In this document: positions 4,804-28,503 of the stretch, piece after piece
Position numbering within the stretch: position 1 is the first letter of the stretch
How the letters are laid out: each line of letters starts with the position of its first letter
Translations under genes and position numbers: made by a program
The notes under the pieces: generated by a model
Databases searched by the model: none
Told to the model about the DNA's origin: nothing
The model's input: only the letters and a program-made list of their open reading frames with translations
DNA from: a virus
DNA: 28,503 bases
Direction: 5' to 3' (one strand)
IMG/VR virus record: IMGVR_UViG_3300044644_000265
Coordinates: 1 to 28,503 of that record

Positions 4804-5151
4804 GTGAGCAATTATGATCCGCTTGACCTGCGCAGCCAGGAACGCAGCAAAGCAGAACGCGAACTGCGCGAACGGCTGGCTCGGGAGAATGAAGAAGCGG
4901 ATATCAAGTGGCTCATGGGCAACAAGCGAGGCCGTCGCATCATTTGGCGGCTTCTGGATCATGCAGGAGTGTTCCGTTCGTCGTTCAACACCAACGCAAT
5001 GGCAATGTCATTCGCCGAAGGTCACAGGAACTACGGACTTCGCATTCTGTCCATGATCCATTCGCAGTGCCCCGAACTGTATCCAACCATGATGAAGGAG
5101 CAGACAGCAGATGAACGAATCAACGATGATGGAAGCCGCAACTCCAACTAA
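4804..5151 (+). CDS. Bbp19-like phage structural protein
   Basis: 115 residues with a GTG start. The core DIKWLMGNKRGRRIIWRLLDHAGVFRSSF followed by MSFAEGHRNYGLRILSMIHSQCPELYPTMMKE is close to what I recall of Bbp19 of Bordetella phage BPP-1, a short conserved virion-module protein. The first 35 residues are highly charged (RSQERSKAERELRERLARE) and probably helical. Its molecular role is not established. It lies between the staple-like gene and the scaffold gene, and its 3' end overlaps the scaffold start by 41 bases. Upstream ribosome-binding sequence is weak, so the GTG start is the best candidate rather than certain. Confidence 0.78.
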   Translation: MSNYDPLDLRSQERSKAERELRERLARENEEADIKWLMGNKRGRRIIWRLLDHAGVFRSSFNTNAMAMSFAEGHRNYGLRILSMIHSQCPELYPTMMKEQTADERINDDGSRNSN

Positions 5152-12262: not shown

Positions 12263-14008
12263 ATGCCGACCGTACCTACATCGTTCGTACCGCAGGTTGC
12301 TCCGCAGAGCGGTGGTGACATCGGACAGTTCCAAGCACCACAGGTGGCGGTAACAGAGAACCTTGCCGCTCCTCAGCAGGTGCGGTTCGGTGCAGCCATG
12401 ACGGGTGCTGGAAATCAGGTGTTCCGTCTTGGTAGTGCTATTCAGGACGGTATCGACGATGCGAAGACCAAGGAAGCCGACGTAGCGGCCGGCAGGGGCA
12501 TGCAGGCGGTGGCCGATAAGTATTCGTCCATGATCGGCAAGGATGCCGAGGTGAACTACGACGCCATGCAGGCCGAACTGTCCCAGGTGGGGCAGTCGGC
12601 GATGGGCATGCTCGACAACGACGTGCAGCGTCGGATGCTCTCCCCGATCCTTGCGCGGAACATGGGGATCTTTGAGAGCCGCATGCGCCAGCACCGCGAC
12701 AACCAAGTGAAGGTCTTCGCGGCAAATGAATCTCGCGCTCGTGCGGATTACTACGCAGCTCTTTCGATTCAGGACTTTGAAAATCGCGGCGAACTGTTGA
12801 GTGGTTACGAGATCAATCGTGGCGTGGCCCTAAACGAACTCAAGCAGGCCGCATCGCTTTCCGGCATTCCAGAGGGTTCGGCGCAGTTCACGGCAATCCA
12901 GCAGCAACTTGATACGCAACTGACGACAGGGGTGGTCAATCGACTGATGCTGGACAACCGCTACGACGAGGCTTACAAGTGGGTCGATGCCCAGCGCAAA
13001 GCTGGTAATTTGGAGCGCAGGGCGGGTGACAGCCTGATGGCATCAATTGATGCAAACCGGGATCGCTTCATGATTGATGAATATGCAACGACCATCAAGG
13101 GATATGGGCGCGTTGGAAGCCCAAATGATGAGGCCAACGACCCGCAGGAGGCTCCAGGATCGCTCAGGGACGCTTTGGACATTGCTGACGGGATCAAAGA
13201 CCCGGAGATCCGCAAAGGCGTCCAGGCGGCTCTGCGGACCCAATACGGGCAGGAGGAGGCATTGGCTCGGCAGGAATACAACTTCCTGATCGACCGAACA
13301 GAGCAGTTCCTTGCCATGCCTGGCAATGACGTGAACAAGATTCCTCCTTCCGCCTGGGGCCGGCTAAAGCCGACCGATCAGGCGCGATTCCTAAAGTCCC
13401 AGCGCGAGGTAGACGAGCTTGGAGTCATGGAAGAATTGGCACGCAATCCTTCGGTACTGACTCGCGAGTACTTGGAAGAAAACCGTGGTCGCATGACGCG
13501 GCAGACTTACACCAAGTTGCTCGGAGACATGAACGCTCCAGACAAGGTGATCGCGGCCACGCTTGACGCAGATCAGGTTGAGGCCACGTTCTTGGCAAAT
13601 GGAATGACCAGCTTGACGAACCCGAGAACGGACTCGGAAAAGAACGAATCGCTCACGCTCCGCAACATGTTCAAGGCGCAGATTGATGACATGCAGAGTG
13701 CGATGAAGCGACCGCTGAATCGAACTGAGAAGCAACGCGTACTGGATCAGGTCATCCTGCAATACAACGAAAAGGGATACGAGCCTGATTGGTATTTTGA
13801 CAACGAGATGCGACTTGGTGCCATGACCGCAGAGCAGCGTCAAACCGCGTACGTCATGGTTGGGAAAAATCGCGTTACGTTGTCGAGTGTTCCGCAATCG
13901 TTTGTGTCTAACGTGGCGTTGCCGGAGTTCCGCAAGGCGGGCGTCACAAATCCAACCATGCAGCAGATCGCCGACTATTGGCTTCGAAAGGGCAGGCCGT
14001 CCGAATGA
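12263..14008 (+). CDS. Internal virion protein (T7 gp15-like ejection protein)
   Basis: 581 residues, mostly alpha-helical and charged. The N-terminus is a flexible P/Q/V-rich arm (MPTVPTSFVPQVAPQSGGD). Segments such as DYYAALSIQDFENRGELLSGYEINRGVALNELKQAASLSGIPEGS and NRLMLDNRYDEAYKWVDAQRKAG resemble repeat-helical gp15-like proteins that form the periplasmic ejection tube. I infer the role mainly from helical character, length and place between the gp14-like and giant proteins. AGAGGA precedes the ATG, and the stop overlaps the next start as ATGA. Confidence 0.75.
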   Translation: MPTVPTSFVPQVAPQSGGDIGQFQAPQVAVTENLAAPQQVRFGAAMTGAGNQVFRLGSAIQDGIDDAKTKEADVAAGRGMQAVADKYSSMIGKDAEVNYDAMQAELSQVGQSAMGMLDNDVQRRMLSPILARNMGIFESRMRQHRDNQVKVFAANESRARADYYAALSIQDFENRGELLSGYEINRGVALNELKQAASLSGIPEGSAQFTAIQQQLDTQLTTGVVNRLMLDNRYDEAYKWVDAQRKAGNLERRAGDSLMASIDANRDRFMIDEYATTIKGYGRVGSPNDEANDPQEAPGSLRDALDIADGIKDPEIRKGVQAALRTQYGQEEALARQEYNFLIDRTEQFLAMPGNDVNKIPPSAWGRLKPTDQARFLKSQREVDELGVMEELARNPSVLTREYLEENRGRMTRQTYTKLLGDMNAPDKVIAATLDADQVEATFLANGMTSLTNPRTDSEKNESLTLRNMFKAQIDDMQSAMKRPLNRTEKQRVLDQVILQYNEKGYEPDWYFDNEMRLGAMTAEQRQTAYVMVGKNRVTLSSVPQSFVSNVALPEFRKAGVTNPTMQQIADYWLRKGRPSE

Positions 14009-17000
14009 TTCCGTTTACGCCAGACGACCGTCGAGCGCAGTTCGCACCTTCGCAGAATGTCGGCGGTGCCGTGGACCGCGACGTGCTAGACATCATCGGC
14101 GCACAACCGCAGCAGACGATGGCAGCGCAAGTCGATTACGAAGTGCCAGACATCAAGCCAGTCGATCCGGATGTTGTGGCAATCGTGAACCAGAATCAGG
14201 GTCCGCTTATGGCGTCTCTGATGGGCGCATCGCAGGTGAATCCGGATCAGGCGGCGGAAGCAAAGCGCATTGGTTCACAGATTGGTATTGGACAGGACAT
14301 CGCTTTGCGGAATATGGATGACGTGCGGCAGCGCGCATTCATGGCCGATGTACAGCGCCGCGACATTGCGCGTGCGAACCCGGTGCTTGCGGGCTTCTTG
14401 ACCGACAGAACATTTGCGAACGAGGCGAGTGACGATATTGGAACACTCGACCGTGTTGGTTCATTCTTTGCAGACATTGGCCGTGCAGCTGCCGGTAGGC
14501 CAATGTATTACACGGCTGGCGAATTGGCTCGCGGATACATGCGCGGCCAACTTGTCGCAGAGCGTGGAGAAATTGGTACGAGGGCAATCTTGGGGGAGGC
14601 AGAGGAAACAAACTTTGCTCGCGCCAAGCAAATTCAGGCCGAGATGCGTGACCTTGCCGGCGGTGGCATTCTCGCATCAACTGCCGAAGTCGTGGCGCAA
14701 AATGTGGCTCAGGCGCGAGAGGTGGTCGGCGCTGGTTTGGTTGGCGGCGCAGCAGGATCAGTGATCCCAGGCATTGGCACAATGACTGGATTTGCTGGCG
14801 GTTTGGGAACGGGCATTGTTTTGACAACGGCAAAAATGGAAGCCGGAAACCTGTACTTGGACCTTCAGGAACAGGGTATTAGCGATGACACGGCAGTTCC
14901 AATTGCTGTCGGCGCTGGCTTGCTGAACGGCGTAGTTGAAGCCGTTGGCATGAAGGTTGCCGCAGCTCCGTTTCGACAATTGGCAGTGCGCGTGATGCGC
15001 GAGCAAATTGCAGAAGCAATACAGAAGCCGACGATGCGCGCCGCGCTGGCGGCAGCCGGCAAGGCTTATGTTGTCCAGGTCGGATCAGAGGCGACAGAGG
15101 AAGGTTTGCAGGAGATTGTGAACATTGCCGGCGAGGAACTTGCCAAGGGCATGGAGGGCATCGACAGCGAAACGACCATGCGCGATGCGGCCAAGCGAGT
15201 GCTGGATTCGTTTGTGCAGGGAGCAATGGGCGGGTCCATTCTTGGCGGTATCGGCCCAGGCGCGAACCTGTATGTTGATTTGCGGCGGGCTAACAAGGCC
15301 ACGAAGCAGACGCGGTTCTTCGATGATCTTTCAAAGAACGCCACCGAGTCAAAGCTCAAGGCGCGAGATGCTGGAGCATACGAACGGTTTGTGGCAGCAA
15401 CGGCTGACGGAACCGGCGCGGACACGGTGTTTGTTGATGGCGCAACCATTCGCGACGTGCTGACGCAGGCCGGAGTGACTGACACGCAACTGGACGCCAT
15501 CATTCCTGGCATGGCGCAGCAGGTGCGTCAGGCCGTCGAACTTGGCAACGACGTGACGCTGCCAACCTCGCAGTTTGCGGCGCGTTTAGCCGGCACGAAG
15601 TTGGGAGACGCACTAATGCCGCATATGCGCCTGTCGCCAGATGCGATGAGCGCAATGGAGGCGCAGCAGTTTGAACAGAGCCGCGAGGCGTTGGTTGAGG
15701 AGGCTCGTGCCCTGCTTGATGCCAAGACCGAGGCAGAGAGTGCATTTGTTCAGGAAGCGGATCAAATCGCATCCAGCATGCGCGACAGATTGGTGGCTGC
15801 TGGTCGTGATCCTGCAATGGCTGAAGTTGAAGCACTTGTGCATCAGGCATTCGTGGTGACGCAGGCTGCACGTCGCGGGATGACGCCGTCCCAGTTTGAG
15901 GCCGAGAGCGGACTTCGCGAGATTGTTGGTGTTCCACAGGTTGGCGCTCCGATGGAGCAGGCGGCCATACCAAAGCCATCGGCGCGAGTCGTTGAACTTC
16001 TGCCTACGTCACAGGTATTGGATGAGCGAGGTTTCGGACCTATTACGCATCCTGTTGATGGCGACGAGGTTGCAGCTGGTCGGGCCATGCGCACGGTTCT
16101 TGGCGGCATTGATGTGCCACGCAAGTATCTAAAAACTCAAGAGGCGTTCGATTATCTGCTGGGTGCTATCAATCAGGTATTGCTGAACAAGAGCAAGGAT
16201 TCGGCAGACTATGACCGGGCTGCTGCGTCAATGGGCCGCGCACTTCGTACTGATCTTGCGACCGTGGATGACATCGTCATCTCGGCGAAAAAGCTCGGCT
16301 ATGCCGGCATCGACCAGGATTTTCGGATTGAGACAGAGGACACGCTGACGAAGACCGATGTGATGGAGGTGCTGGATCAGATTCCGATTGCACCAGAGAT
16401 GTTCGACCAAGCCGCCCGCATCGACGCTGACTACCTCGCGGCCGTTGAGCGCGGCGACATGGAAGCGGCGCAGCGCATGGTGGACGAGGCGGCAAAGGCA
16501 AGTGGACTAACGGAAATTGTTTGGCGTGGAGATCGTAACGCAGCACAAATCACGGAATATCGGCGAGGCGCACGACGAGAACCTGGAATCTTCACGACTA
16601 CAAATCAGTATGTCGCTGACAAATACGCTGGCAAAGAAGGTGGTGCCAGACGCTTCTATGTTGGCGGACGAACGCTTGACTTGACAAATCAAACACCAAA
16701 AGTCATTGCATGGATTCGTAAATGGTCTGAAGATGGGAATTGGGATTTTGTTGATCGTGCTTCTGGAGAATCCGTTACTCCTGAAGACGCTGTTATGAGC
16801 GGTCGCCTTTATAACTGGGAAGGAACATGGAGCGGACAAAGGTGGAAAGATATTCAGGCAACCGCTGCGGAAGATGGATACGACATTGTCAAGTTGATTG
16901 ATGAGGACAAGGATGCGGTAGATGGAACATTTATTTCTACCGTTGTCTTGAACGAGAACAAGATCAAACTCGCAGACCCCGTCACCTACGACGAGCAGGG

Positions 17001-20000
17001 CAACATCGTCCCGCTGTCGCGCCGGTTCGACATCACCAGCCCCAAGGTGTTTGAGCAGGCGGCTGCCGGCCCGCGTTTGATGGCCGTTCACAATCTGTCC
17101 GCTGACAACCTTGCGTTTGCCGAACGCATGGGTGGCCTCGCTGTACCGTCGATTGGCGTTGTCACTGAGCAAGCCGGCGGCGTTGAGGGATTTGGTGAAA
17201 TTACGCTGCTCGGTACACGCGAGATGGCCGAGCCTCGTACAACGCCAGTATTTGAGGCCGACGCATATTCGGCTAGGTTCCCACGCCCGGAATGGCCGAA
17301 AGTTTCGACTGCAAAAGCAGATGCCGTTGTCGCATCCATTCGTGATCTACAAACCGAGTTTGATGACGTAGGACTGGTTGATAGCACATTCAATTTTCTC
17401 GTCAACGAACCAGATGCCAACAAGTTAGCGGAGCGTTGGTTGCGTTCGCCAGCAATCATGGCGATGTACTTGCGAGAGCGTGGAATTGAAATCGCTCCGA
17501 TACTTGAAACACGACCAACCCTGTCGCGCCTGACATGGGAGGCAATTGATCGCCTGACTCCAATTTATTTGGCAGTCGATCAACAGCAAGCGTATGACGT
17601 TATGGAGGCCAGTCCTGAATACGCGGCCCTCAAAGTTGCATATGCGGATGAAGTTCGTAGTCAATATCAGGGCGTTGCAGAAGAACTGCCAGAAGGACGT
17701 GTTGAGGAGTGGGCAACGCAATTCACTCCCACGACGCTGCAACGATTGAGCAGAGATGTTCGAGAAACGAATCGCCAGCGCGTAGCAAGAGAAGCAACAG
17801 CCGATGCGATCACGGAAAAGTTGGAGCCGCTGTACGCGGAATACAAGACCTGGGTCGATCAGAAAACGCGAGAACAATTTGGTGCGCCATTCCTTCGTGA
17901 TGGCAAGCTAAAGCGTCCATATACGCTTGGAAATATCGTTGACTTTATGGCTTCTGCCAAGGTCAAGGGTGAGGAAAAGGGATTGACATTTGGAGCTGGT
18001 GCGGCTCGGGCGAAGCGTGCGCGAGCGTTCCCTGATCTTGAGGAAATGCGCGAGGCAGCAAAGACAGCCATCGTCAATCCAGACGAATACAGCAAGGCAC
18101 GAAAGGAATCGGAAAAAACTCTTGAGGCGTACCGCCTTGCGGTTGTGGACTACACGCGGCTGACGGATTACCGTGGCAAGCAAGACACATGGGCCGCAAT
18201 GGACGGGTCTATGAAGGCGCTGGCTCGGTACGGTAAGCGCAAGAAGCGAAACGCAAAGGCAATGCGCGAAGCATTGAGCCGTGAGCAATTTGCTATTGGC
18301 AGCATGCCAGCGGAAACTATCGAACAGGCCATTGATGCCGCTGATGCTCTGTTCAATGCGCCAGTCCCATACTTTGAGGCCAAGCCACAGCGTGCGGTGC
18401 GACTAAATGAGTTTGCTGGCGCAGTAATCCCGACAGATGCATCACAGCAAACCCGCGACATTCTTGAGCGCAGTGGCATCCCATACATGTCGTATATGGC
18501 TGGAAATGAACAGGATCGACAAATGGCGGTGCGCCAGATGGCGGTTTCTCCAGAGGCGCGTGGTGAGGTGTTGTTTCAAGCAGCTCCCGGCCCAGCCCGA
18601 GGTGGATATGACCCTGCGCGGCTGAAGATTCTGTTCGGTCCGGGCGCTGACTTTACGACCGGAGCGCACGAACTCACACATTTCTACGTCGATTACTACA
18701 CCAGGCAGGCGATGGCCGGCACGGCTACGCCGCAGATGCTTGCGGATTTGGATGCCATGTTCAAGTTCATGGGCGTTGCTGGAGATACCCCAGAGGCACG
18801 AATGGCGGCGTTCAACGCAATGCCGTTTGAAACCTCTAGGCCGTTGATTGAAACGATCACCTACAACGCGGAGATCTATCTGTTTGAGGGCAAGGCTCCG
18901 AGTCTTGAACTGGCCGGCGTGTTTGACCGCATGCTGGCGTTCTTCCGCAGGGCGTACAAGAGCATTGCCGACTTCATCACGCAGCAGCAGGCCATCTACC
19001 GCCGAGAGTTTGGCCGCGAACTTCCTGTCCTAAATGACGAACTGCGGGCGGTCTTTGACCGGATGCTGGCAGACGAGCAGCAGATCAAGCAGGCCCAGGC
19101 CGTGGCACAAATGCGCGGCCAGTTCACCGTCAAGCCCGAGGGCATGGACGATGCTGAGTGGGCGGCATATCAGGAGATGGCTGGCGAAGCCACGAATGCG
19201 GCCATTGCGGATATGACCAAGGCCAGTCTGCGGCAGATGGAATGGCTGTCGCGGGCGCGTAGCCGGATCATCAAGGACATGCAGGAGCGGCACACCGCCC
19301 AGCGCAAGGAGGTCCGAGAGCGTGTCCAGCGCGAGGTGCAGCAGGATCCTTTGTACCTGGCAATGGCATTCCTGAAGCGGGCGCAGATCGTGGCCCCGGA
19401 CGGTGCCACTACGAAGGCCGAGGGAGTACACAGGATTGACAGGGTGCTGGCGGCAGAGTTTGCCCCAACCGTAGACCTGGCGCGCCTTGGCGGTCGTTTT
19501 GGCGTCCTACAGGACGATGGGCTGCATCCTGATGTCGTGGCCGAGATGTTTGGCTATCCGGCTGGCGCAAGCCTCCTACAGGCTTTGGCTGACGCTAAAC
19601 CGATGCGGGAGGTTGTGGAGGACCGGACTGACGCGGAGATGTTGCGCGTGTACGGGGAGATGAACACGCCGGAGGCCCGTGAGCAGGAGATCCAAAAGGC
19701 GCTCCACAACGAGGCTAGGGCGCGGCTGGTGGGTGTTGAGTTGCGTTTCATGGGCAAGATTCGGCAGCCAGTACGGGTGCTGATGGAAGCCGCTCGCCAG
19801 GCAGCCCAACAGGTCATCGACCGCAAGCGCGTGGGAGAACTGCGTCCAAGCGAGTTCATCGCGGCAGAGGCGAAGGCATCCCGTGAAGCCACGGCTGCGA
19901 TGCAGGACAACAAGCCTGATATGGCGGTACGCGCCAAGCGGGCGCAGCTCCTGAACAACCAACTGGCAAAGACTGCGCTTGAGGTTCGCGACGAAATCGA

Positions 20001-22383
20001 CGATGGAGTTCGGTATCTGCGCAGGGTGTTGCGTGATAGCAATCGCCAGCGTATGGGCGCGGACGTTGCAGACCAAATCGCTGGTCTGCTGGATCGTTTC
20101 AACATTGCGCCGATGACGGCAGATGAGGCCAACCGAGTCCGAACGCTATCAGAGTTCTTGGCATCGCTTGAGGATCGTGGCCTGGTCCCAGACATTGCCG
20201 AAGCCATAGGAATGCGTGACACGCGCATCCCGTACAAGAACATGAACATCGCGGACTTCCGCGATCTTGTCGATGCAATCAAACAACTTGAATACATCGG
20301 AAAGAACGAACGCAAGATTCTGTTGGCAAAGGAAAAGGCAGAGTTTCAGGCGGTTCGGGATGAGATCGTAAAGAGCGTTGTAGATAACGCTGGCGACCGC
20401 AAGGCCAACGCCAGGACGGCGACTACCAACATCGGCAGGGCCGTCACGGCCATGAAGGGATTCGCGGCGGCGCACCTGAAGGCCGCATCAATTGTCCGCA
20501 TCATGGATGGTGGTAAGGATGGCGGGCCGTTGTGGAACTATCTGATCCGGTCTGCAAACGAAGCCGGAGATACAGAAACCACCATGAGGGCAGAAGCAAC
20601 CGCTGACCTGACCAAGATCCTTGAACCAGTATTCCGCGCTGGAAAGCTGGGTGGAAAGGGCATTTTCTTCCCGACGATCAACCGAGCCATGAATCGCGAG
20701 GCACGCCTAGTCGTGGCCCTAAACATGGGCAACGCTGGCAACATGCAGCGCCTACTGGATGGCGAGGGTTGGAGCATTGAATCCGTCCTTCCTGTTCTGC
20801 AATCTCTGACCGAGGACGAACTAAATACGGTCCAGCAGATTTGGGACTACTTTGAGAAGTACCGCCCAATGATTGGACAGAAGGAACGCCGCCTGTACGG
20901 CAAGGAGCCGGCATGGGTTGAGCCTCAGCCGCTTGTGGTTCAGTCTGCGGACGGAAAGACCGTCACGCTTCGTGGTGGCTATTACCCGATCAAGTACGAT
21001 CCTCGCGCATCACAACGGGCCGAAACGATGTCTGAGGCCGATGAGGCCAAGCGCGATTTAGCGGGTTCATACACAACCGCAACGACGCGACGCAGTTTCG
21101 TGAAATCGCGTGTTCGCAAGGTTGAAGATCAGCCGCTGCTGTACACACTGGCTGGCATGTATAGCGGAATCAATGATGTGATCCACGATCTGACGTGGCA
21201 CGAATGGCTGATCCAGGCGAACCGTCTGATGCGATCCAAGTCGTTCGATGAGGCTGTGCGAAACCGATACGGACCAGAATATGTGGCGCAGCTCAAGAAC
21301 TGGATCAAGGATGTCGCTGCCGGCGAGCGTGGCGTGCAGAACGAAGCCGAGATGGCGCTGAACTTCCTGCGGCAGGGCATTAGTTCTGCTGGCCTAGGTT
21401 TCAACATCGTGAGTGCGGCCATGCAGATCACTGGTTTCAACCAGTCCATTGTGCGCGTCGGAGCAAGGTGGATTGGTCGCGGCATTGCATATGTCGCGCA
21501 GAATCCGATGATTGCAATGCGAGAGGTAAATGAAAAGTCAGAGTTTATGCGGAACAGAAGCCGCACCCAATTCCGAGAACTAAACGAGATCCGGAACATG
21601 GTGCAAGGCCAAAGTGTCGCCATGCGCCGCGTGCAGATGGGCACCTACTTCCTGATGATGCGGATGCAGCGCATGGTCGATGTACCGACGTGGCATGGTG
21701 CATATGAGAAGGCCATGTACGAAGGACGCGATGAGGAGACTGCTATTGCGCTTGCGGACCAGGCGGTTATTGACTCACAGGGCGGAGGCATGGTCAAGGA
21801 TCTTGCTCGCGTTGAGCGTGGCGGTCCTGCGGTCAAGTTGTTCACGGTGTTTTATGGGTACATGAACACGGTCTACAACATGGCTGCTGTTCAGACGATG
21901 ACGAACAAGAACAAGGGCCGTTTGGCAGCCGATTACGTTATGTTGTTCGTGGTTCCAGTTGTTCTGACCTACATGCTGAAGCAGGCGCTTATCCCACGAA
22001 AGGGAGGCGAGGACGAGGAGTGGGATATGAGCAAGATTGCACGAGAGCTTGCCGCAGAGCAGTTGTCGTACCTGATGGGAACGATGGTCATTGCTCGTGA
22101 GTTTGGCGAGGTTGGAAAGATGATCTTTGGAGTCGAAGGACCGCGCATGGGCTATGGCGGTCCAGCCGGATTGAGAGCAGTCGGTGAGACATACCAGTTT
22201 GCAACACAGGCATCGCAGGGTGAATTTGATACCGCGTTCCGCAAGTCGGCAGTCAACATGATCGGCGCGTTTACTGGTCTTCCAAGCGCCCAGGTGAACC
22301 GCACGCTTGATGGCCTTGAGGCGCTGTATGAGGGTGAAACGAAGAATGTTTTGGCACCACTAACTGGAGCAAAGAAGCGATGA
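14005..22383 (+). CDS. Giant polyvalent ejection protein with ADP-ribosyltransferase-like and metallopeptidase regions
   Basis: 2792 residues from the ATG at 14005 (ATGA overlap; an upstream TTG at 13978 is less likely). It occupies the T7 gp16 position, so it is probably packaged and ejected. Approximate order: helical N-terminus; Gly/Ala-rich membrane-like region at residues 235-390; an ADP-ribosyltransferase-like region at residues 837-1009 (VWRGD, GIFTTTNQYVADKYAG, closing NIVPLSRRFD, a PLxRF motif); an LPD-type segment (HNLSADNLAFAERMGGLAVPSIGVV); metallopeptidase motif HELTH at 1555-1559 with possible third ligand E1623; long charged helices; a hydrophobic segment near 2643-2660; and a conserved-looking ejection C-terminus. 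No lytic transglycosylase motif was found. Resembles PLxRFG/Bcep22-type giant virion proteins. Enzyme activities are inferred. Confidence 0.88.
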   Translation: MIPFTPDDRRAQFAPSQNVGGAVDRDVLDIIGAQPQQTMAAQVDYEVPDIKPVDPDVVAIVNQNQGPLMASLMGASQVNPDQAAEAKRIGSQIGIGQDIALRNMDDVRQRAFMADVQRRDIARANPVLAGFLTDRTFANEASDDIGTLDRVGSFFADIGRAAAGRPMYYTAGELARGYMRGQLVAERGEIGTRAILGEAEETNFARAKQIQAEMRDLAGGGILASTAEVVAQNVAQAREVVGAGLVGGAAGSVIPGIGTMTGFAGGLGTGIVLTTAKMEAGNLYLDLQEQGISDDTAVPIAVGAGLLNGVVEAVGMKVAAAPFRQLAVRVMREQIAEAIQKPTMRAALAAAGKAYVVQVGSEATEEGLQEIVNIAGEELAKGMEGIDSETTMRDAAKRVLDSFVQGAMGGSILGGIGPGANLYVDLRRANKATKQTRFFDDLSKNATESKLKARDAGAYERFVAATADGTGADTVFVDGATIRDVLTQAGVTDTQLDAIIPGMAQQVRQAVELGNDVTLPTSQFAARLAGTKLGDALMPHMRLSPDAMSAMEAQQFEQSREALVEEARALLDAKTEAESAFVQEADQIASSMRDRLVAAGRDPAMAEVEALVHQAFVVTQAARRGMTPSQFEAESGLREIVGVPQVGAPMEQAAIPKPSARVVELLPTSQVLDERGFGPITHPVDGDEVAAGRAMRTVLGGIDVPRKYLKTQEAFDYLLGAINQVLLNKSKDSADYDRAAASMGRALRTDLATVDDIVISAKKLGYAGIDQDFRIETEDTLTKTDVMEVLDQIPIAPEMFDQAARIDADYLAAVERGDMEAAQRMVDEAAKASGLTEIVWRGDRNAAQITEYRRGARREPGIFTTTNQYVADKYAGKEGGARRFYVGGRTLDLTNQTPKVIAWIRKWSEDGNWDFVDRASGESVTPEDAVMSGRLYNWEGTWSGQRWKDIQATAAEDGYDIVKLIDEDKDAVDGTFISTVVLNENKIKLADPVTYDEQGNIVPLSRRFDITSPKVFEQAAAGPRLMAVHNLSADNLAFAERMGGLAVPSIGVVTEQAGGVEGFGEITLLGTREMAEPRTTPVFEADAYSARFPRPEWPKVSTAKADAVVASIRDLQTEFDDVGLVDSTFNFLVNEPDANKLAERWLRSPAIMAMYLRERGIEIAPILETRPTLSRLTWEAIDRLTPIYLAVDQQQAYDVMEASPEYAALKVAYADEVRSQYQGVAEELPEGRVEEWATQFTPTTLQRLSRDVRETNRQRVAREATADAITEKLEPLYAEYKTWVDQKTREQFGAPFLRDGKLKRPYTLGNIVDFMASAKVKGEEKGLTFGAGAARAKRARAFPDLEEMREAAKTAIVNPDEYSKARKESEKTLEAYRLAVVDYTRLTDYRGKQDTWAAMDGSMKALARYGKRKKRNAKAMREALSREQFAIGSMPAETIEQAIDAADALFNAPVPYFEAKPQRAVRLNEFAGAVIPTDASQQTRDILERSGIPYMSYMAGNEQDRQMAVRQMAVSPEARGEVLFQAAPGPARGGYDPARLKILFGPGADFTTGAHELTHFYVDYYTRQAMAGTATPQMLADLDAMFKFMGVAGDTPEARMAAFNAMPFETSRPLIETITYNAEIYLFEGKAPSLELAGVFDRMLAFFRRAYKSIADFITQQQAIYRREFGRELPVLNDELRAVFDRMLADEQQIKQAQAVAQMRGQFTVKPEGMDDAEWAAYQEMAGEATNAAIADMTKASLRQMEWLSRARSRIIKDMQERHTAQRKEVRERVQREVQQDPLYLAMAFLKRAQIVAPDGATTKAEGVHRIDRVLAAEFAPTVDLARLGGRFGVLQDDGLHPDVVAEMFGYPAGASLLQALADAKPMREVVEDRTDAEMLRVYGEMNTPEAREQEIQKALHNEARARLVGVELRFMGKIRQPVRVLMEAARQAAQQVIDRKRVGELRPSEFIAAEAKASREATAAMQDNKPDMAVRAKRAQLLNNQLAKTALEVRDEIDDGVRYLRRVLRDSNRQRMGADVADQIAGLLDRFNIAPMTADEANRVRTLSEFLASLEDRGLVPDIAEAIGMRDTRIPYKNMNIADFRDLVDAIKQLEYIGKNERKILLAKEKAEFQAVRDEIVKSVVDNAGDRKANARTATTNIGRAVTAMKGFAAAHLKAASIVRIMDGGKDGGPLWNYLIRSANEAGDTETTMRAEATADLTKILEPVFRAGKLGGKGIFFPTINRAMNREARLVVALNMGNAGNMQRLLDGEGWSIESVLPVLQSLTEDELNTVQQIWDYFEKYRPMIGQKERRLYGKEPAWVEPQPLVVQSADGKTVTLRGGYYPIKYDPRASQRAETMSEADEAKRDLAGSYTTATTRRSFVKSRVRKVEDQPLLYTLAGMYSGINDVIHDLTWHEWLIQANRLMRSKSFDEAVRNRYGPEYVAQLKNWIKDVAAGERGVQNEAEMALNFLRQGISSAGLGFNIVSAAMQITGFNQSIVRVGARWIGRGIAYVAQNPMIAMREVNEKSEFMRNRSRTQFRELNEIRNMVQGQSVAMRRVQMGTYFLMMRMQRMVDVPTWHGAYEKAMYEGRDEETAIALADQAVIDSQGGGMVKDLARVERGGPAVKLFTVFYGYMNTVYNMAAVQTMTNKNKGRLAADYVMLFVVPVVLTYMLKQALIPRKGGEDEEWDMSKIARELAAEQLSYLMGTMVIAREFGEVGKMIFGVEGPRMGYGGPAGLRAVGETYQFATQASQGEFDTAFRKSAVNMIGAFTGLPSAQVNRTLDGLEALYEGETKNVLAPLTGAKKR
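16501..16980 (+). other. Low-GC segment encoding the ADP-ribosyltransferase-like domain
   Basis: By hand count this 480-base stretch is about 47% G+C (226 bases), whereas the 120 bases before it and the 60 bases after it are each about 65%. The boundaries coincide with the start of EIVWRGD (residue 837) and a point just before the closing VTYDEQGNIVPLSRRF motif. A domain with its own composition inside one reading frame suggests replacement or insertion by recombination. The flanks carry the polyvalent-protein linker motifs. Confidence 0.6.
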
Positions 22384-22444: not shown

Positions 22445-24607
22445 TTGACAATTAGCAGCACAACGCGCATTGCCGGCCCGTTTGTTGGAACTGGATCTGC
22501 CAGCGTCTTTCCATTTACCTTTAAGGTATTCGCAGCGTCTGATTTGGACGTGATCCGCCTGAACAGTTCAACTGGCGTTGAAACGACGCTAGTGCTGACG
22601 ACGGATTACACGGTCACACTGAACGGCAATCAAAACACGAATCCTGGCGGAAGCGTCACGCTGGTCGCTGGCGCGCTCGCCAGCGGATTTACGCTGACGA
22701 TCACTTCCGACATCTCCAACCTTCAGCCGACCGACCTGACGAACCAGGGCGGGTTCTACCCCGAGGTCATTACGGACTCGCTGGACCGGGCAACGATCCA
22801 AATCCAGCAGATGTCTGAGGACATTGGCCGCAGTCTGAAGGGTCCGATTTCGGACGGCAGCCTGAACATGGAGTTGCAAACGGCTTCCATTCGCGCCAAC
22901 AAGTATTTGGTCTTTGATGCCAACGGACTCCCGATCACGTCTGCTGGCAGCGGAGCGGATACCGCGCTTCGGACTGATCTAGCGAATACTGGGGTCACGA
23001 CAGCAGGAGCCGGACTTGTCGGATTCCGAAACGCGGATGCTTCGTCAGTTGCAAGGACAGTGCTTTCCAAGCTCCGCGATGCCGTGAGCGTCAAGGACTT
23101 TGGTGCGGCAGGGGATGGAGCGACGGATGACACGGCAGAAATTCAGGCAGCACTTGACGCAGTTCCGGCCGTTGGCGGATGCGTGTACTTCCCAGCAGGT
23201 ACATATGTCGTGTCAGCGCCACTCGTCGTTGACTCAAACACCGTTTTGGTTGGAGACGGAATGTATGTGTCCAACCTGTCTGCAACTACTGCATTTACGT
23301 CATCTCAGGCAATGGTCTATGCGAATGCCGAGAACAACATCACTATCGAAGATCTTGGGTTCTTCGGCAACACGAACGGAACGCTCGGCGCTGGCACCGG
23401 AATTCACTTGAAGAACGGCACCAGGAACCAAGTTCGAAGTTGTTACGTTGAGAACACCACGCAAGCCGGCATCCGTTACGAGGAGCAGAATAACGGCATC
23501 ATCGATGGATGCACTCTCAACGCATGCGGGCGAACGGGATACACAGACAATCACGGGATCATGCTGTATTCGGCTAGCGGTTCAGCAATCCAGACGTATT
23601 CCTGCAAGGTCACTTCCAACACCGTGACGAATGCTTTTCGCAAGGGAATCACTACGTTCTCCGAACTGCTGTTGTACGACCTTTTGATTTCTGGAAACAC
23701 GGTCACCGGGTCTGGACTTGGAAACATCTATGTTGGTGGCACGGCACCAACAAGCACACATGACAAGATTCGTGTGGTTGGAAATTACGTTGAGGGTGGT
23801 CCAATCAACATTCAAATTGGTTCCACTAGCAACTCTGTCATTGATGGAAACACGTGCGGTGCAAACACGACTGCAAGTGCGAACATCGGATTTGTGGATT
23901 CGACCGATCTCGTCATTTCGAACAATGTTGTTCAGAGTTCGGACCAGGCCGGGATTTCGGCACTCGCAAGTGGAGCATCGCGGAACGAACAAATTTCGAT
24001 TGTCGGAAACATTTTGAGAAACAACAATCGAAGCAATTCCGCAACGGGATTCGGAATTCATGTATTTGACACAGATGTGGCAATCGTTTCCGGAAACATC
24101 GTGATTGATGATGTGGCAACGACACGACAGCGATATGGGATCGTTGACGCAACCGGAAACACAAATGTTGCTATCCGCGATAACGTCGTACTGAATGTTG
24201 TCACCGCACCATACCTGGTGCAGACGGCAACTGGCATGCTGTCATTCGCCGAGTTTGGAACGTCGTTCGTATTTGAAGGCAGCATTCGCACGAAGCAAGC
24301 CACATTCACAGCTGCGAACGGGAACAACAACAATATCGCTATCCCGTCGCAAAGCGGAACAGTCAGAATTACCGGGCCGACAGGCGCCTACTCAATCACT
24401 GGCCTTGCAGGCGGATCTGTGGGGCGCGAAATCACAATCATAAATGACACCGCGCAGACCCTCACTTTGGAAGTCAATGATGTAAACTCCTCAGTCGGGA
24501 ATCGCCTTTTGCCTACAGGAAGCGTTGACATGACTGTGGTTGCATATGGCTCAGCACGATTGCTGTATGCAACCGCTCAGGGCAACAACTTTTGGGTGAC
24601 GCCATGA
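22445..24607 (+). CDS. Tailspike with right-handed beta-helix (pectate-lyase-like) domain
   Basis: 720 residues from a TTG start with CAGGAG upstream. Residues 1-130 form a particle-binding domain (AGPFVGTGSASVFPFTFKVF..., ending ITDSLDRATIQIQQMSEDIGRSLKGP), typical of podovirus fibre/spike N-termini. VKDFGAAGDGATDDTAEIQAALD at residue 216 starts a pectate-lyase-3-type beta-helix with Asn-rich rungs (NNITIEDLGFFGN, ISGNTVTGSGLGN, IVGNILRNNN). The last 100 residues form a beta-rich C-terminal domain (GTVRITGPTGAYSITGLAGGSVGR). It probably binds and may cleave surface polysaccharide; catalytic residues cannot be named. The beta-helix part looks less GC-rich than the head genes. The stop overlaps the next start (ATGA). 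Confidence 0.9.
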   Translation: MTISSTTRIAGPFVGTGSASVFPFTFKVFAASDLDVIRLNSSTGVETTLVLTTDYTVTLNGNQNTNPGGSVTLVAGALASGFTLTITSDISNLQPTDLTNQGGFYPEVITDSLDRATIQIQQMSEDIGRSLKGPISDGSLNMELQTASIRANKYLVFDANGLPITSAGSGADTALRTDLANTGVTTAGAGLVGFRNADASSVARTVLSKLRDAVSVKDFGAAGDGATDDTAEIQAALDAVPAVGGCVYFPAGTYVVSAPLVVDSNTVLVGDGMYVSNLSATTAFTSSQAMVYANAENNITIEDLGFFGNTNGTLGAGTGIHLKNGTRNQVRSCYVENTTQAGIRYEEQNNGIIDGCTLNACGRTGYTDNHGIMLYSASGSAIQTYSCKVTSNTVTNAFRKGITTFSELLLYDLLISGNTVTGSGLGNIYVGGTAPTSTHDKIRVVGNYVEGGPINIQIGSTSNSVIDGNTCGANTTASANIGFVDSTDLVISNNVVQSSDQAGISALASGASRNEQISIVGNILRNNNRSNSATGFGIHVFDTDVAIVSGNIVIDDVATTRQRYGIVDATGNTNVAIRDNVVLNVVTAPYLVQTATGMLSFAEFGTSFVFEGSIRTKQATFTAANGNNNNIAIPSQSGTVRITGPTGAYSITGLAGGSVGREITIINDTAQTLTLEVNDVNSSVGNRLLPTGSVDMTVVAYGSARLLYATAQGNNFWVTP

Positions 24608-24828
24608 CCTCCACCCACAACGAAGAACTGTTCCTCGCCATCGGCCGCCTGGAAGGCAAGGTAGATTCCCTGATTGCCATGCAGAGCCACCAGCAGGATC
24701 AGCTCAAGGAACATGACACACGCATCCGTTCGCTTGAGCATTCGCGGGGCTATATGCTTGGATGGTCAGCGGCCATCGGAGCGAGCATGAGCCTTGTCGC
24801 TAACTACCTCATCCGCGCATTCAACTAA
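24604..24828 (+). CDS. Small coiled-coil protein with C-terminal membrane segment (holin-associated-like)
   Basis: 74 residues starting at the ATG that overlaps the tailspike stop. The N-terminal part EELFLAIGRLEGKVDSLIAMQSHQQDQLKEHDTRIRSLE is an amphipathic coiled coil. The C-terminus SRGYMLGWSAAIGASMSLVANYLIRAF is a single transmembrane helix. This layout is like XhlA-type or other small lysis-associated proteins that sit near holins. It may act in lysis, but it lies 2.2 kb before the other membrane genes, so a role in the virion or as an antiholin cannot be excluded. An in-frame ATG at 24601 would extend it slightly. Confidence 0.7.
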   Translation: MTSTHNEELFLAIGRLEGKVDSLIAMQSHQQDQLKEHDTRIRSLEHSRGYMLGWSAAIGASMSLVANYLIRAFN

Positions 24829-24837
24829 AGGACCAAT

Positions 24838-25380
24838 ATGCCTACCGACATCATCATTGCGACTGACAAGCCAAGTTACTTGACGACTGGCCTCGTCACC
24901 GCCAGCAGCGGCACTTACGATAGCTCTGTCCCGACTGCCACGATCCCGTCTACAACCGGGCAGACGTTCCTGGTTCCTACGAACCTTGGCGACAAGCCGA
25001 GTTTGCTGCGCCTGACGCCGTTCCACAGCGCGAACAATGCGACCACTCCGGGCTTCCGCGTGATCGGTTGGACGACGTACACGCAGACGAACGGCACCCC
25101 GATTTACGTTCCCACAATGCTTGCCGACTGCGCCTGCTCGTACAACGCTACCGCAGGCAGCATCCCGAGCTTGTCGGTGAACAGTACGACGCAGTACTTC
25201 TTCCATGCGATTGTTGTTGGCACTGGGGTTCCGACCGTGAATGTCTACAGCCCAGGCACGGCAGCGGCTGCCGGCACGCCGCCAGCCGGCGTGGTCATCG
25301 ACACCATCGGCCATCAGTACATCACGATCCAGGTTGAGTCTTCGACCGGAACGATGGGTTGCTTCTACGCCTTCATCTGA
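24838..25380 (+). CDS. Beta-rich putative virion protein, unknown function
   Basis: 180 residues after AAAGGA and the ATG. The sequence is Thr/Ser/Gly/Pro-rich and lacks charged helices, with blocks FLVPTNLGDKPSLLRLTPFHSANN, TPGFRVIGWTTYTQT, STTQYFFHAIVVGTGVPTVNVYSPG and QYITIQVESSTGTMGCFYAFI. It looks like a compact beta-sandwich. Codons are GC-rich and similar to the capsid and cement genes, which suggests abundant expression. A decoration or appendage subunit is plausible from composition and place, but I do not recognise the family. Confidence 0.68.
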   Translation: MPTDIIIATDKPSYLTTGLVTASSGTYDSSVPTATIPSTTGQTFLVPTNLGDKPSLLRLTPFHSANNATTPGFRVIGWTTYTQTNGTPIYVPTMLADCACSYNATAGSIPSLSVNSTTQYFFHAIVVGTGVPTVNVYSPGTAAAAGTPPAGVVIDTIGHQYITIQVESSTGTMGCFYAFI

Positions 25381-27014: not shown

Positions 27015-27027
27015 CGAAAGGAACCAC

Positions 27028-27210
27028 ATGAAGAACAATTGGAAGACCACTTCGGCGGGCATTGCCGCAATCCTCGTCGCCGTCGGCTCGGCCCTGAAGG
27101 CGTTGACGGACAATGACCCCACCACCGTGCCGGATATTGGTGCGTGCATCGCGGCCATCATGGCTGGCGTTGGCCTGATGCTTGCCAAGGACGCTAGCAA
27201 GGCCGACTGA
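27028..27210 (+). CDS. Small two-helix membrane protein, candidate holin
   Basis: 60 residues with GAAAGGA upstream of the ATG at 27028. Two short hydrophobic segments, TTSAGIAAILVAVGSALKAL (residues 7-26) and DIGACIAAIMAGVGLMLAK (36-54), are separated by a polar turn NDPTTVP. Proteins with this KNNWKTT...GIAAI pattern occur in lysis regions of many phages and are often labelled holin-like. A holin would time lysis by opening the inner membrane. The stop overlaps the next start (TGATG). Confidence 0.7.
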   Translation: MKNNWKTTSAGIAAILVAVGSALKALTDNDPTTVPDIGACIAAIMAGVGLMLAKDASKAD

Positions 27211-27380
27211 TGGCGTGGCTGTACGCGCTTATTGCGGCCATTGTGGCTGAGGTGCTAGGCCGCTTCGGCGGCAAGATTGGCAAAACGGAGGCCACAGATG
27301 CAACACAAGACACAAGTCGCCTTGATCGGGCTGGCTCTCGCATTCGCGACTGGATGCGCTCGCGTAACGCTGGTAAGTGA
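27210..27380 (+). CDS. 56-residue membrane-anchored protein overlapping the lipoprotein gene
   Basis: The ATG at 27210 shares its A with the preceding TGA, and the frame runs to TGA 27380. The N-terminus MAWLYALIAAIVAEVLGRFGG is a short hydrophobic anchor. The rest is polar and charged (TDATQDTSRLDRAGSRIRDWMRSRNAGK). Its last 83 bases overlap the lipoprotein gene in another frame, an architecture reminiscent of Rz/Rz1 spanin pairs. It is very short for an inner-membrane spanin, so this role is speculative. Confidence 0.6.
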   Translation: MAWLYALIAAIVAEVLGRFGGKIGKTEATDATQDTSRLDRAGSRIRDWMRSRNAGK

Positions 27381-27531
27381 GGGCAGTCCCGTTCGCATTG
27401 GGCCGGAGTGTCGAGTGAGGGTTTACACCCTTACTAGCGACGGATGGGAGCTTTCACCAAACACCGTCACGATCCCAGAGGGCTGGTACTGCGTGCCACC
27501 CAGTTACGTCGAACAGCAAGACCCTAAATAA
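27298..27531 (+). CDS. Small lipoprotein in lysis region (possible outer-membrane spanin-like partner)
   Basis: 77 residues from the ATG at 27298, with GGAGG (27287-27291) six bases upstream. An in-frame start at 27277 would add seven residues before the signal and has no such site. The signal MQHKTQVALIGLALAFATGC ends in a lipobox-like ATGC, so Cys20 would be lipidated. The mature part (VSEGSPVRIGPECRVRVYTLTSDGWELSPNTVTIPEGWYCVPP) contains two further cysteines and matches small phage lipoproteins I have seen beside holin genes. The out-of-frame overlap with the upstream membrane protein gene suggests joint action in lysis; direct evidence is absent. Confidence 0.75.
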   Translation: MQHKTQVALIGLALAFATGCARVTLVSEGSPVRIGPECRVRVYTLTSDGWELSPNTVTIPEGWYCVPPSYVEQQDPK

Positions 27532-27548: not shown

Positions 27549-27833
27549 TCACTTTGCTTGCATTCGACGCAGCAATCTGCCAGCAACCATTGGGTCGAGT
27601 GATGTGCCACGCCTGGCCGGCATGGAGTGTTTGATGTTCAGAATGTTTCTCAACTCATCCGCAAACAGCACATCCCCTGACGCTGTTAGCGTCAGCATTG
27701 TTCGCAGAGCATCATGGACAGCTGCAATGTCTGTTGCAACGAGCGCGTGACCGTGTGCGTTCATGTGGCCCTGCGCGCTCAGTAGAACATCCATCAGGTT
27801 TGTTGGTCTTGTAAGTTTCGGCATCCTTGCCAT
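27549..27833 (-). CDS. Small hypothetical protein on the minus strand
   Basis: About 94 residues (MARMPKLTRP...LLRRMQAK), helical, with HALVATDIAAVHDALRTMLTLTASGD and FADELRNILNIKHSM. I do not recognise it. The start is uncertain: ATG 27833, or ATG 27824 with AAGG directly before it. The frame also runs back to ATGs at 27884 and 27893 behind a GGGGAGG, but that extension would be encoded by the terminator hairpin. Its stop lies only 17 bases from the end of the convergent lipoprotein gene. Confidence 0.6.
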   Translation of the reverse strand: MARMPKLTRPTNLMDVLLSAQGHMNAHGHALVATDIAAVHDALRTMLTLTASGDVLFADELRNILNIKHSMPARRGTSLDPMVAGRLLRRMQAK

Positions 27834-27840
27834 GCGCGGA

Positions 27841-27879
27841 TAATATAAAAACCCCGACCTGACGGAAGCCAGGCCGGGG
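27841..27879 (-). terminator. Rho-independent terminator for the minus-strand genes
   Basis: On the minus strand CCCCGGCCTG pairs fully with CAGGTCGGGG (one G-U wobble) around an 8-base loop and is followed by TTTTTATATTA. On the plus strand the same position would be an A-C mismatch and there is no T-tract, so the signal is polar. It lies 27 bases after the stop of the 27906-28400 gene and would end transcripts entering from the right, before they meet the late operon. Confidence 0.88.
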
Positions 27880-27905
27880 CGCATGGAGAACATACCTCCC
27901 CGAGT

Positions 27906-28400
27906 CTACAGCGAGACAGTGCGGTGGTCGCCAAAGATGTTTTGCACATCCGCGCTAGGCGACCAGCGCGCAACCCATGCTCCATCTGTGGATAGCCACG
28001 TTTCGTTTCCTGAACTATCAATCCGTGCGATGGCGTACATGATTTCGCTGGCTGCTTTGCACCCACGTCCAAGCATGTCCATTTCCAATTCAATGGACTT
28101 TGCGATGATTGGACCCAGCGGAGAATCAGCCGTCACGATGTCCCGGCGCACGGATTCGATGTCTTGCATGGACAGCGTATGGACTGTTCCATAATCGCTC
28201 TCACCTAGCATGATCCATGCGATGTGCGTGGCCTCCCACGGAACCTCTTGGTTATGCCATAAGACCGTGCGAGTTTGGGAAATTGAAAGCGCCTGCGAGC
28301 CTTTTGAAACAACTCGCATCTGTCCTTCTAGCCGGCGATTGAAACGGAACATCAGAATCGCCAATCCAACCAGTAGCGAAATGATTATCCATTCAGTCAT
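27906..28400 (-). CDS. Membrane-anchored protein, unknown function
   Basis: 164 residues from the ATG at 28400. N-terminal residues 3-19 (EWIIISLLVGLAILMFRF) are a transmembrane helix, followed by positively charged RRLEGQMR, suggesting the rest is cytoplasmic. The soluble part (TVLWHNQEVPWEATHIAWIMLGESDYGTVHTLSMQDIESVRRDIV...) matches no family I know. The start is supported by GGGGGTGG upstream and by an 8-base overlap with the preceding gene's end. A frame extending to 28448 exists but would duplicate that gene's coding bases. The terminator follows its stop. Confidence 0.72.
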   Translation of the reverse strand: MTEWIIISLLVGLAILMFRFNRRLEGQMRVVSKGSQALSISQTRTVLWHNQEVPWEATHIAWIMLGESDYGTVHTLSMQDIESVRRDIVTADSPLGPIIAKSIELEMDMLGRGCKAASEIMYAIARIDSSGNETWLSTDGAWVARWSPSADVQNIFGDHRTVSL

Positions 28401-28503
28401 TGTCCACCCCCAACCTGGCGTCCACAGCTGCCAATAGGTCCCTGGCATCCAACAGCATTTGCTCGCTGCGTGGATGTGGGTTTTCGCCTAGAGCTGCATC
28501 CGC
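28393..28503 (-). CDS. C-terminus of an unknown protein (5' end beyond the right edge)
   Basis: The minus strand is open from the right edge to TGA at 28393-28395. It gives 36 residues that include HPRSEQMLLDARDLLAAVDARLG, a regular amphipathic helix that reads as genuine protein. Its stop overlaps the start of the downstream membrane-protein gene by 8 bases, a typical coupled arrangement. Too little is present to name it. Confidence 0.6.
   Translation of the reverse strand, partial: ADAALGENPHPRSEQMLLDARDLLAAVDARLGVDND

Follow-up and report, generated by a model that had tools for sequence, protein, structure and literature searches.

The window, the whole stretch of 28.5 kb that was analyzed (IMG/VR record IMGVR_UViG_3300044644_000265, positions 1-28,503), carries three small genes that we read, with slightly better than even confidence, as a lysis cassette composed of a holin and a divergent two-component spanin, without a peptidoglycan hydrolase of its own. 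In the proposed mechanism the 60-residue protein would be the holin that permeabilises the inner membrane. The 56-residue protein and an outer-membrane lipoprotein would form a divergent spanin of the overlapped two-component type that links both membranes. As infection ends, the pair would disrupt the outer membrane, putatively through contact between the two proteins and membrane fusion. For the pair taken by itself, the assignment as a divergent two-component spanin with putative inner-membrane anchoring is close to an even call. It builds on several observations: the coupled genes are inherited together, the lipoprotein has a lipobox, the genes are exchanged as a unit and they occupy the lysis slot, in which relatives carry a lipoprotein with a transmembrane (TM) helix and a small single-TM open reading frame (ORF). 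No description of such a cassette was recognised in the open-licence literature. If the reading is right, the cassette represents a common spanin variant of uncultivated phages whose inner-membrane part may be without a true TM helix, and two-component and unimolecular layouts replace each other within one lineage.

Cassette layout, selection and distribution

The phage of the window is a BPP-1-like podovirus. Its portal is 65% identical to that of BPP-1 and 76% identical to those of Limnohabitans phage DC33 and podovirus ctEw122. The relative G002 shares DNA that is mostly 91-98% identical and has about 9.5 kb that the window is without. All three genes of the cassette are on the plus strand. 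The holin-like gene (27028..27210) encodes 60 residues with two hydrophobic segments, and its stop is overlapped by 1 nt by the start of the gene for the 56-residue protein (27210..27380). The lipoprotein gene (27298..27531, 77 residues) starts with an ATG at 27298 inside the 56-residue ORF, and its Shine-Dalgarno sequence GGAGG (27287..27291, plus strand) also lies within that ORF, 6 nt before the ATG. The two ORFs overlap out of frame for 83 nt (27298..27380, plus strand). The coordinates of an earlier, sequence-only reading were right, as was its account of successive, overlapping genes. The overlap of membrane protein and lipoprotein ORFs in different frames, which it had described for the window, held in all 74 loci in which a holin-like gene was detected (7 of the 81 loci are without a detected one and were left out of this count). 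In these 74 loci the 56-residue gene, with its start taken as the in-frame ATG, GTG or TTG closest to the holin stop, begins within -8 to +4 nt of that stop.

Among 17 loci of the window's clade, omega was 0.13 for the holin-like gene and, outside the overlap, 0.18 for the 56-residue gene and 0.06 for the lipoprotein gene; the control frames of all three gave at least 1.04. Constraint was weaker inside the overlap, with omega of 0.95 in the 56-residue frame and 0.51 in the lipoprotein frame. Each ORF is under strong purifying selection, and all three are therefore real genes. The very small size of the ORFs and the 0.95 of the 56-residue frame inside the overlap would fit chance or non-coding ORFs, but the values of 0.06-0.18 outside the overlap refute this, and order and frame are kept in dozens of divergent cassettes; the probability left to that explanation is negligible.

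A scan of IMG/VR with the lipoprotein returned 105 relatives, 80 of which were kept, and a scan with the lipoprotein alignment returned 410 stretches encoding a relative, again with 80 kept. Four lipoprotein queries found no relative in 50,697 deposited phage records, and one query found none in plasmids. Two predicted viral proteins in BFVD are 35-39% identical to the lipoprotein (E 0.07 and 0.12). Three contigs of MAGs also gave matches: one of 3.0 kb (Loclat bin), one of 20.5 kb (Candidatus Kuenenia) and one of 6.7 kb (Rhodobacteraceae). They may be stray phage contigs; no host is claimed. By HMM, the lipoprotein and the 56-residue ORF occur together in 141 of 143 loci (149 loci minus six at a contig edge, some of them on the same contig), and in the two loci that the HMM misses, L247 and L249, the 56-residue ORF is visible to the eye. 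Of 94 distinct cassette sequences, 92 have both members of the pair by HMM, and inspection by eye adds the last two. In 90 of these 94 the lipoprotein gene is preceded by the holin-like gene. In L046-L048 and L255 it is swapped for an unrelated family, two-TM by eye, and the pair stays.

Positions ~27016-27500 of the window are 81-86% identical in DNA to five genomes (G001, G004, G005, G006 and G009). The same megablast found nothing else common to the window and these five; at the protein level, some early genes are common to them. G006 has a Mu-type portal, and its virion genes are common to G001, G005 and G009, not to the window. The protein set that includes G010 and G019 gave matches to HK97-type portal and capsid proteins and to SU10-type portal and adaptor proteins, which member gives which match being read from gene lists. 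Judged by these comparisons, the cassette is a mobile block carried by phages whose virion genes show no detectable relationship. End repeats of 87-127 bases, of the kind that circular assemblies show, are present in seven relatives, all of which carry the lipoprotein. By clustering, the holin-like gene is the sole family common to all seven of these genomes; the 56-residue gene was found in six of the seven. On the minus strand, genes of 114 residues (27549-27893) and 180 residues (27906-28448) were observed; the 180-residue protein has a single N-terminal hydrophobic segment. Among 17 records that differ in virion genes, members of their clusters occur in 6 and 7, respectively.

The two hydrophobic segments of the 60-residue protein score 1.72 and 1.93 (KD19). 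Two predicted TM segments and a place in the lysis locus make it a candidate holin, and its charges, judged by eye, suggest an N-in/C-in topology with an acidic periplasmic loop. It resembles two-TM holins, of which Phage_holin_5_2/Hol44 is the nearest in Pfam, in its length of 60 residues, its two hydrophobic segments and its position as the first gene of the cassette. It differs from them in that no curated holin family was matched above cut-off (Phage_holin_5_2 E 0.064, 14 bits against a cut-off of 29.2), and the putative holin role is read from sequence and slot. The match to phrog_5807 is also weak and below cut-off (E 0.031).

The 56-residue protein and the lipoprotein

The signal of the lipoprotein ends in LALAFATG followed by C, and the mature part has 58 residues, with C19 and C46. 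The G-C of the lipobox, behind a hydrophobic stretch, is invariant in 81 of 81 relatives. A strict lipobox pattern fits 27 of the 81 and fails in 54, the window not being among the failures; a published spanin survey also knows lipoboxes that deviate (PMC6139136). Two ORFs in the window pass the lipobox filter, whereas 60 shuffles of two-base blocks gave 0.1 on average. The second of them is antisense inside the giant virion gene, and the cassette ORF is the only credible one in the window. There are 18 invariant columns in 41 lipoprotein sequences, and at least one cysteine beyond the lipid-modified one is present in 40 of the 41 distinct lipoproteins. The model of the lipoprotein is a small beta fold (pLDDT 75), and none of 202 aligned PDB chains reached a Z of 2 or more. 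An SH3-like fold was suspected by eye; the fold search gave no support for it.

The 56-residue protein has an N-terminal hydrophobic or amphipathic helix, followed by a basic stretch with the motif LxRAGxRIRxWM. It had been described as anchored from the sequence alone. For the window the hydrophobic helix stood, but as a borderline case, with a KD19 of 1.68 and an E and an R inside; lambda Rz scores 2.63. Within the window's clade the helix scores 1.54-1.71. The distinct relatives outside this clade score 0.52-1.29 with 2-5 charged or His residues, and the helix is predicted to be amphipathic rather than transmembrane there, without a convincing TM helix. The net charge after the helix is positive in nearly all sequences (+4 in the window, range -1 to +7); by the positive-inside rule this favours C-in, which is the wrong way for an i-spanin. 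The protein is without cysteine, as are 39 of 45 distinct sequences.

The best-supported assignment makes the 56-residue protein the putative inner-membrane component and the lipoprotein the putative outer-membrane component of a spanin-like pair. Three features of two-component spanins, the lipobox, the overlapped genes and a periplasmic cysteine, are present; similarity to a known spanin family was not found for either protein in PHROG, Pfam or NCBIfam. Small size and the lack of a long periplasmic coiled coil had been held against a standard spanin. Given the published pairs this is no argument: in the survey their periplasmic length goes down to 62 residues (range 62-300), and more than 120 i-spanins are without a predicted coiled coil (PMC6139136). 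The periplasmic length of the window pair would be ~94 residues (58 + ~36), if the 56-residue protein is assumed to be N-in/C-out. The survey gives at least one periplasmic cysteine for 507 of 528 pairs and 0+2 cysteines, as in T4, as the commonest combination (PMC6139136). The window pair has this combination, with C19 and C46 of the lipoprotein.

Like lambda Rz/Rz1, and like T4 PseT.3/PseT.2 and the overlapped class in the survey (PMC6139136), the pair consists of small membrane protein and lipoprotein genes that overlap out of frame. It also shares with overlapped two-component spanins the late lysis slot and the cysteine combination; were the inner component N-in/C-out, the periplasmic length would fall within their range. 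It is unlike them in giving no sequence match and in an inner component of only 56 residues, with an unclear TM helix outside the clade. Lambda Rz1 is unstructured and proline-rich, whereas the window lipoprotein is a conserved domain with a predicted small beta fold. The cassette is spanin-like in predicted anatomy and in exchange; its sequence and its putative inner-membrane part set it apart from known families. The divergent spanin system that had been put forward as one possibility for the window is favoured by the inseparable overlapping pair, the cysteine combination and the exchange with a unimolecular-spanin-like gene (see below), but the proposed inner-membrane partner is without a convincing TM helix outside the window's clade. 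BPP-1, BMP-1 and BIP-1 are given in the survey among the phages without an identified spanin (PMC6139136).

Exchange in the lysis slot of related podoviruses

In the block after the fibre genes, DC33 encodes a Peptidase_M15_4 protein (E 9.7e-7) with a neighbour that matches DUF2514 below cut-off (E 3e-5), and ctEw122 encodes a Phage_lysozyme protein (E 1.5e-47). The M15 peptidase ORF38 of DC33 is named as the endolysin in PMC12195039. The cassette of the window is like these lysis blocks in its place after the fibre genes of a collinear genome, and unlike them in that neither an M15 endopeptidase nor a lysozyme was recognised in the window.

Eighty podovirus loci were fetched with the giant virion protein of the window, and in 61 of them the sequence continues for 3 kb or more past the match. 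Among these 80 loci the trio of holin-like, 56-residue and lipoprotein genes was found only in those of G002 and G003. An HMM detected a lipoprotein whose C-terminal half contains a TM helix in 19 of the 80. In the four loci read in place (L126, L127, L128 and L151) this protein has 161-175 residues and is encoded after the fibre genes; in L126, L127 and L128 a single-TM ORF of 37-42 residues follows it. The proteins of the latter three loci (L126:10850-11445, L127:17295-17935 and L128:5906-6567) belong to one lipoprotein+TM family, have a tail of ~50-60 residues past the TM helix and gave no PHROG match. They have an N-terminal lipobox, a TM helix on the C-terminal side and no cysteine after the lipobox, and the survey likewise gives no cysteine after the lipobox for the 58 known u-spanins (PMC6139136). 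As predicted from these features, the set in the slot of the relatives is organised like a unimolecular spanin accompanied by a small holin. Proteins of the layout of unimolecular spanins such as T1 gp11 are found in the same slot in L126, L127, L128 and L151. They differ from the type in the tail behind the TM helix, and the window lipoprotein differs from it in having no TM helix after the signal.

L126 has a virion protein 99% identical to that of the window. Behind it, 96% identity to the window resumes at 27480, inside the lipoprotein gene, and the sequence before this point differs. Of the lipoprotein gene, L126 retains the final 16 codons and the stop (27480..27531, plus strand), by this comparison the scar of an in-place exchange. 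This exchange is the best evidence for a common function of the trio and the lipoprotein+TM set. An origin of u-spanins from o-spanins is called speculative in the survey (PMC6139136).

The exchange bears on two further explanations of the cassette. Small phage lipoproteins can also act in superinfection exclusion, as does Llp of T5. A receptor blocker of this kind, with the neighbouring genes as accessories and no role in lysis, would agree with a small lipoprotein close to the tail-fibre genes and with the strong conservation of its small domain. Such a protein should track the receptor-binding genes, yet the lipoprotein is common to phages without detectably related virion genes and is inseparable from the 56-residue ORF, and in L126 a lipoprotein+TM gene has taken its place with the 3' end of the trio lipoprotein left behind. 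We consider a receptor blocker highly unlikely.

The second explanation concerns a gene upstream of the cassette (24604..24828, wider bound 24592, plus strand), which encodes 74 residues with a coiled coil and a C-terminal hydrophobic helix. Its product, which we take to have an XhlA-like layout, matches phrog_5225 of unknown function (E 4.8e-5). The lipoprotein could be an o-spanin with this TM and coiled-coil protein as its partner, the 56-residue protein then being a cytoplasmic or membrane-surface, antiholin-like regulator of the holin. An ORF with coil and hydrophobic helix is present upstream of the cassette in 61 of 70 loci with enough flank (four loci with short flank were dropped; seven of the nine loci without a match belong to the L058 group, in which at least four, L063, L065, L067 and L075, show a TM + coil frame by eye). 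By layout it fits an i-spanin better, and it is often within ~30 nt of the holin-like gene, with holin length assumed. The amphipathic helix of the 56-residue protein outside the window's clade and its start at the holin stop would also suit a regulator. Against this, the order is reversed, coil then TM, in two of the 61 loci, namely the window and L006, and it is the lipoprotein, not the holin-like gene, that the 56-residue gene accompanies. The coil-TM gene is moreover present in 10 of 11 near-complete podoviruses with the unimolecular-like gene, against 0 of 11 endolysin-bearing ones; it is kept where the unimolecular-like gene is, and therefore does not go with the lipoprotein. This partnership appears unlikely, and the 56-residue protein is preferred as the candidate inner-membrane partner.

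The search for an endolysin

That the window holds no recognisable endolysin had been seen from its ORFs, and the profile searches agree: Pfam and PHROGs name no hydrolase, with one PHROG label aside. Whole-record searches of the window gave no match to PF01510, PF00959, PF01464, PF08291 or PF01551, and Pfam on ten proteins and PHROGs on nineteen named none save the label of phrog_10475. This family, labelled "endolysin", matches part of a 581-residue virion gene (12263-14008) with E 1.4e-8. The gene was rejected as an endolysin, with a profile coverage of 405-636 of 700 aa and no Pfam hydrolase domain. The ctEw122 gene at the place of the 581-residue gene has an M23 peptidase domain, which was found in 0 of 28 other searched records, the window included. 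Five window proteins were searched against PDB sequences and matched no peptidoglycan hydrolase, the best matches being weak and to unrelated proteins; the genes 1948-2394, 2397-2750, 4804-5148 and 24838-25377 were compared with PDB sequences only.

In whole-record searches of cassette carriers, Amidase_2 was found in 0 of 23, SLT in 0 of 41, Peptidase_M15_3 in 0 of 41 and M23 in 0 of 23. A Phage_lysozyme match in G021 (1 of 23 carriers) was rejected; it is below cut-off and antisense inside a gene of 3061 residues. The sequence-only reading had asked for a search beyond the window, and in the scanned proteins of the seven end-repeat relatives no endolysin of a known family was recognised. Here Pfam at E 0.01 found no hydrolase in 155 of 174 cluster representatives (60-750 aa, proteins <60 aa being excluded, and two lists holding the best 25 of 27 and of 31 families) and in six large proteins. 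The 19 representatives left out were RecT, which was scanned separately, and G002 genes beyond base 11000; window homologues of several of the 19 were scanned, those of others are the four window genes compared with PDB sequences only, and the coverage did not extend to G002's own fibre genes. Among the scanned proteins of the additional ~9.5 kb of G002 were RecT, an exonuclease-like protein and DUF1376, and no peptidoglycan hydrolase. The same tools find hydrolases in DC33, ctEw122 and 13 further podovirus records. Profile searches for GH108 and GH19 carry no weight, as no control matched either.

Since the relatives with end repeats are also without a recognised endolysin, a truncated window alone does not explain the absence, which seems, from these searches, to be a property of the phage group rather than of the window edge. 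The three commonest endolysin-containing combinations make up 38.1%, 21.2% and 18.7% of the viruses in PMC12596118. PF00959 or PF13539 was found in 0 of 19 records with the unimolecular-like gene against 15 of 30 others (Fisher p 1e-4; related phages are counted, so that the records are not independent, and many of the 49 are fragments). Loss of an endolysin in exchange for the cassette was rejected, as the unimolecular-like relatives also show none.

An ordinary lysis system with an endolysin encoded elsewhere, of a class that Pfam misses, would be compatible with the spanin reading, and its probability falls only a little short of even. The endolysin of T7, gene 3.5, is encoded in the replication region, so such a location is possible, and many small genes of the relatives are without a family. 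No candidate stood out, however, and this includes a HExxH metallopeptidase of ~105 residues. The latter was rejected as the endolysin and kept as a weak lead. Its gene was found in 10 of the 23 records with the trio and in 10 of 11 near-complete unimolecular-like podoviruses against 0 of 11 endolysin-bearing ones, in which two marginal partial matches were seen (E 6e-4 and 8e-4). The same split is shown by RecT (9 against 0), Gp157 (11 against 0) and metallophosphoesterase (9 against 0), and not by RusA (2 against 2); the two groups are unlike in much of their early module, and the HExxH pattern is therefore not specific. By fold the protein comes closest to IrrE/PprI, SprT and minigluzincins, with a weak Z of 5.5 for PprI. 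In G002 the gene (L108:9431-9760) follows the metallophosphoesterase gene, and in G005 and G006 it lies directly before the TM + coil gene upstream of the cassette.

Trio carriers of at least three virion types and the collinear unimolecular-like podoviruses show no recognised peptidoglycan hydrolase. Lysis without a classical endolysin, in which the wall would be breached by membrane proteins or cut by an undescribed class of enzyme, is a possibility to which we give a low probability. This phage group offers a specific starting point in the search for a new wall-degrading enzyme or for enzyme-free lysis. In the virion region of the window, a gene at 13978-22383 encodes a protein of 2801 residues with PBECR5 nuclease-like and LPD22 domains.
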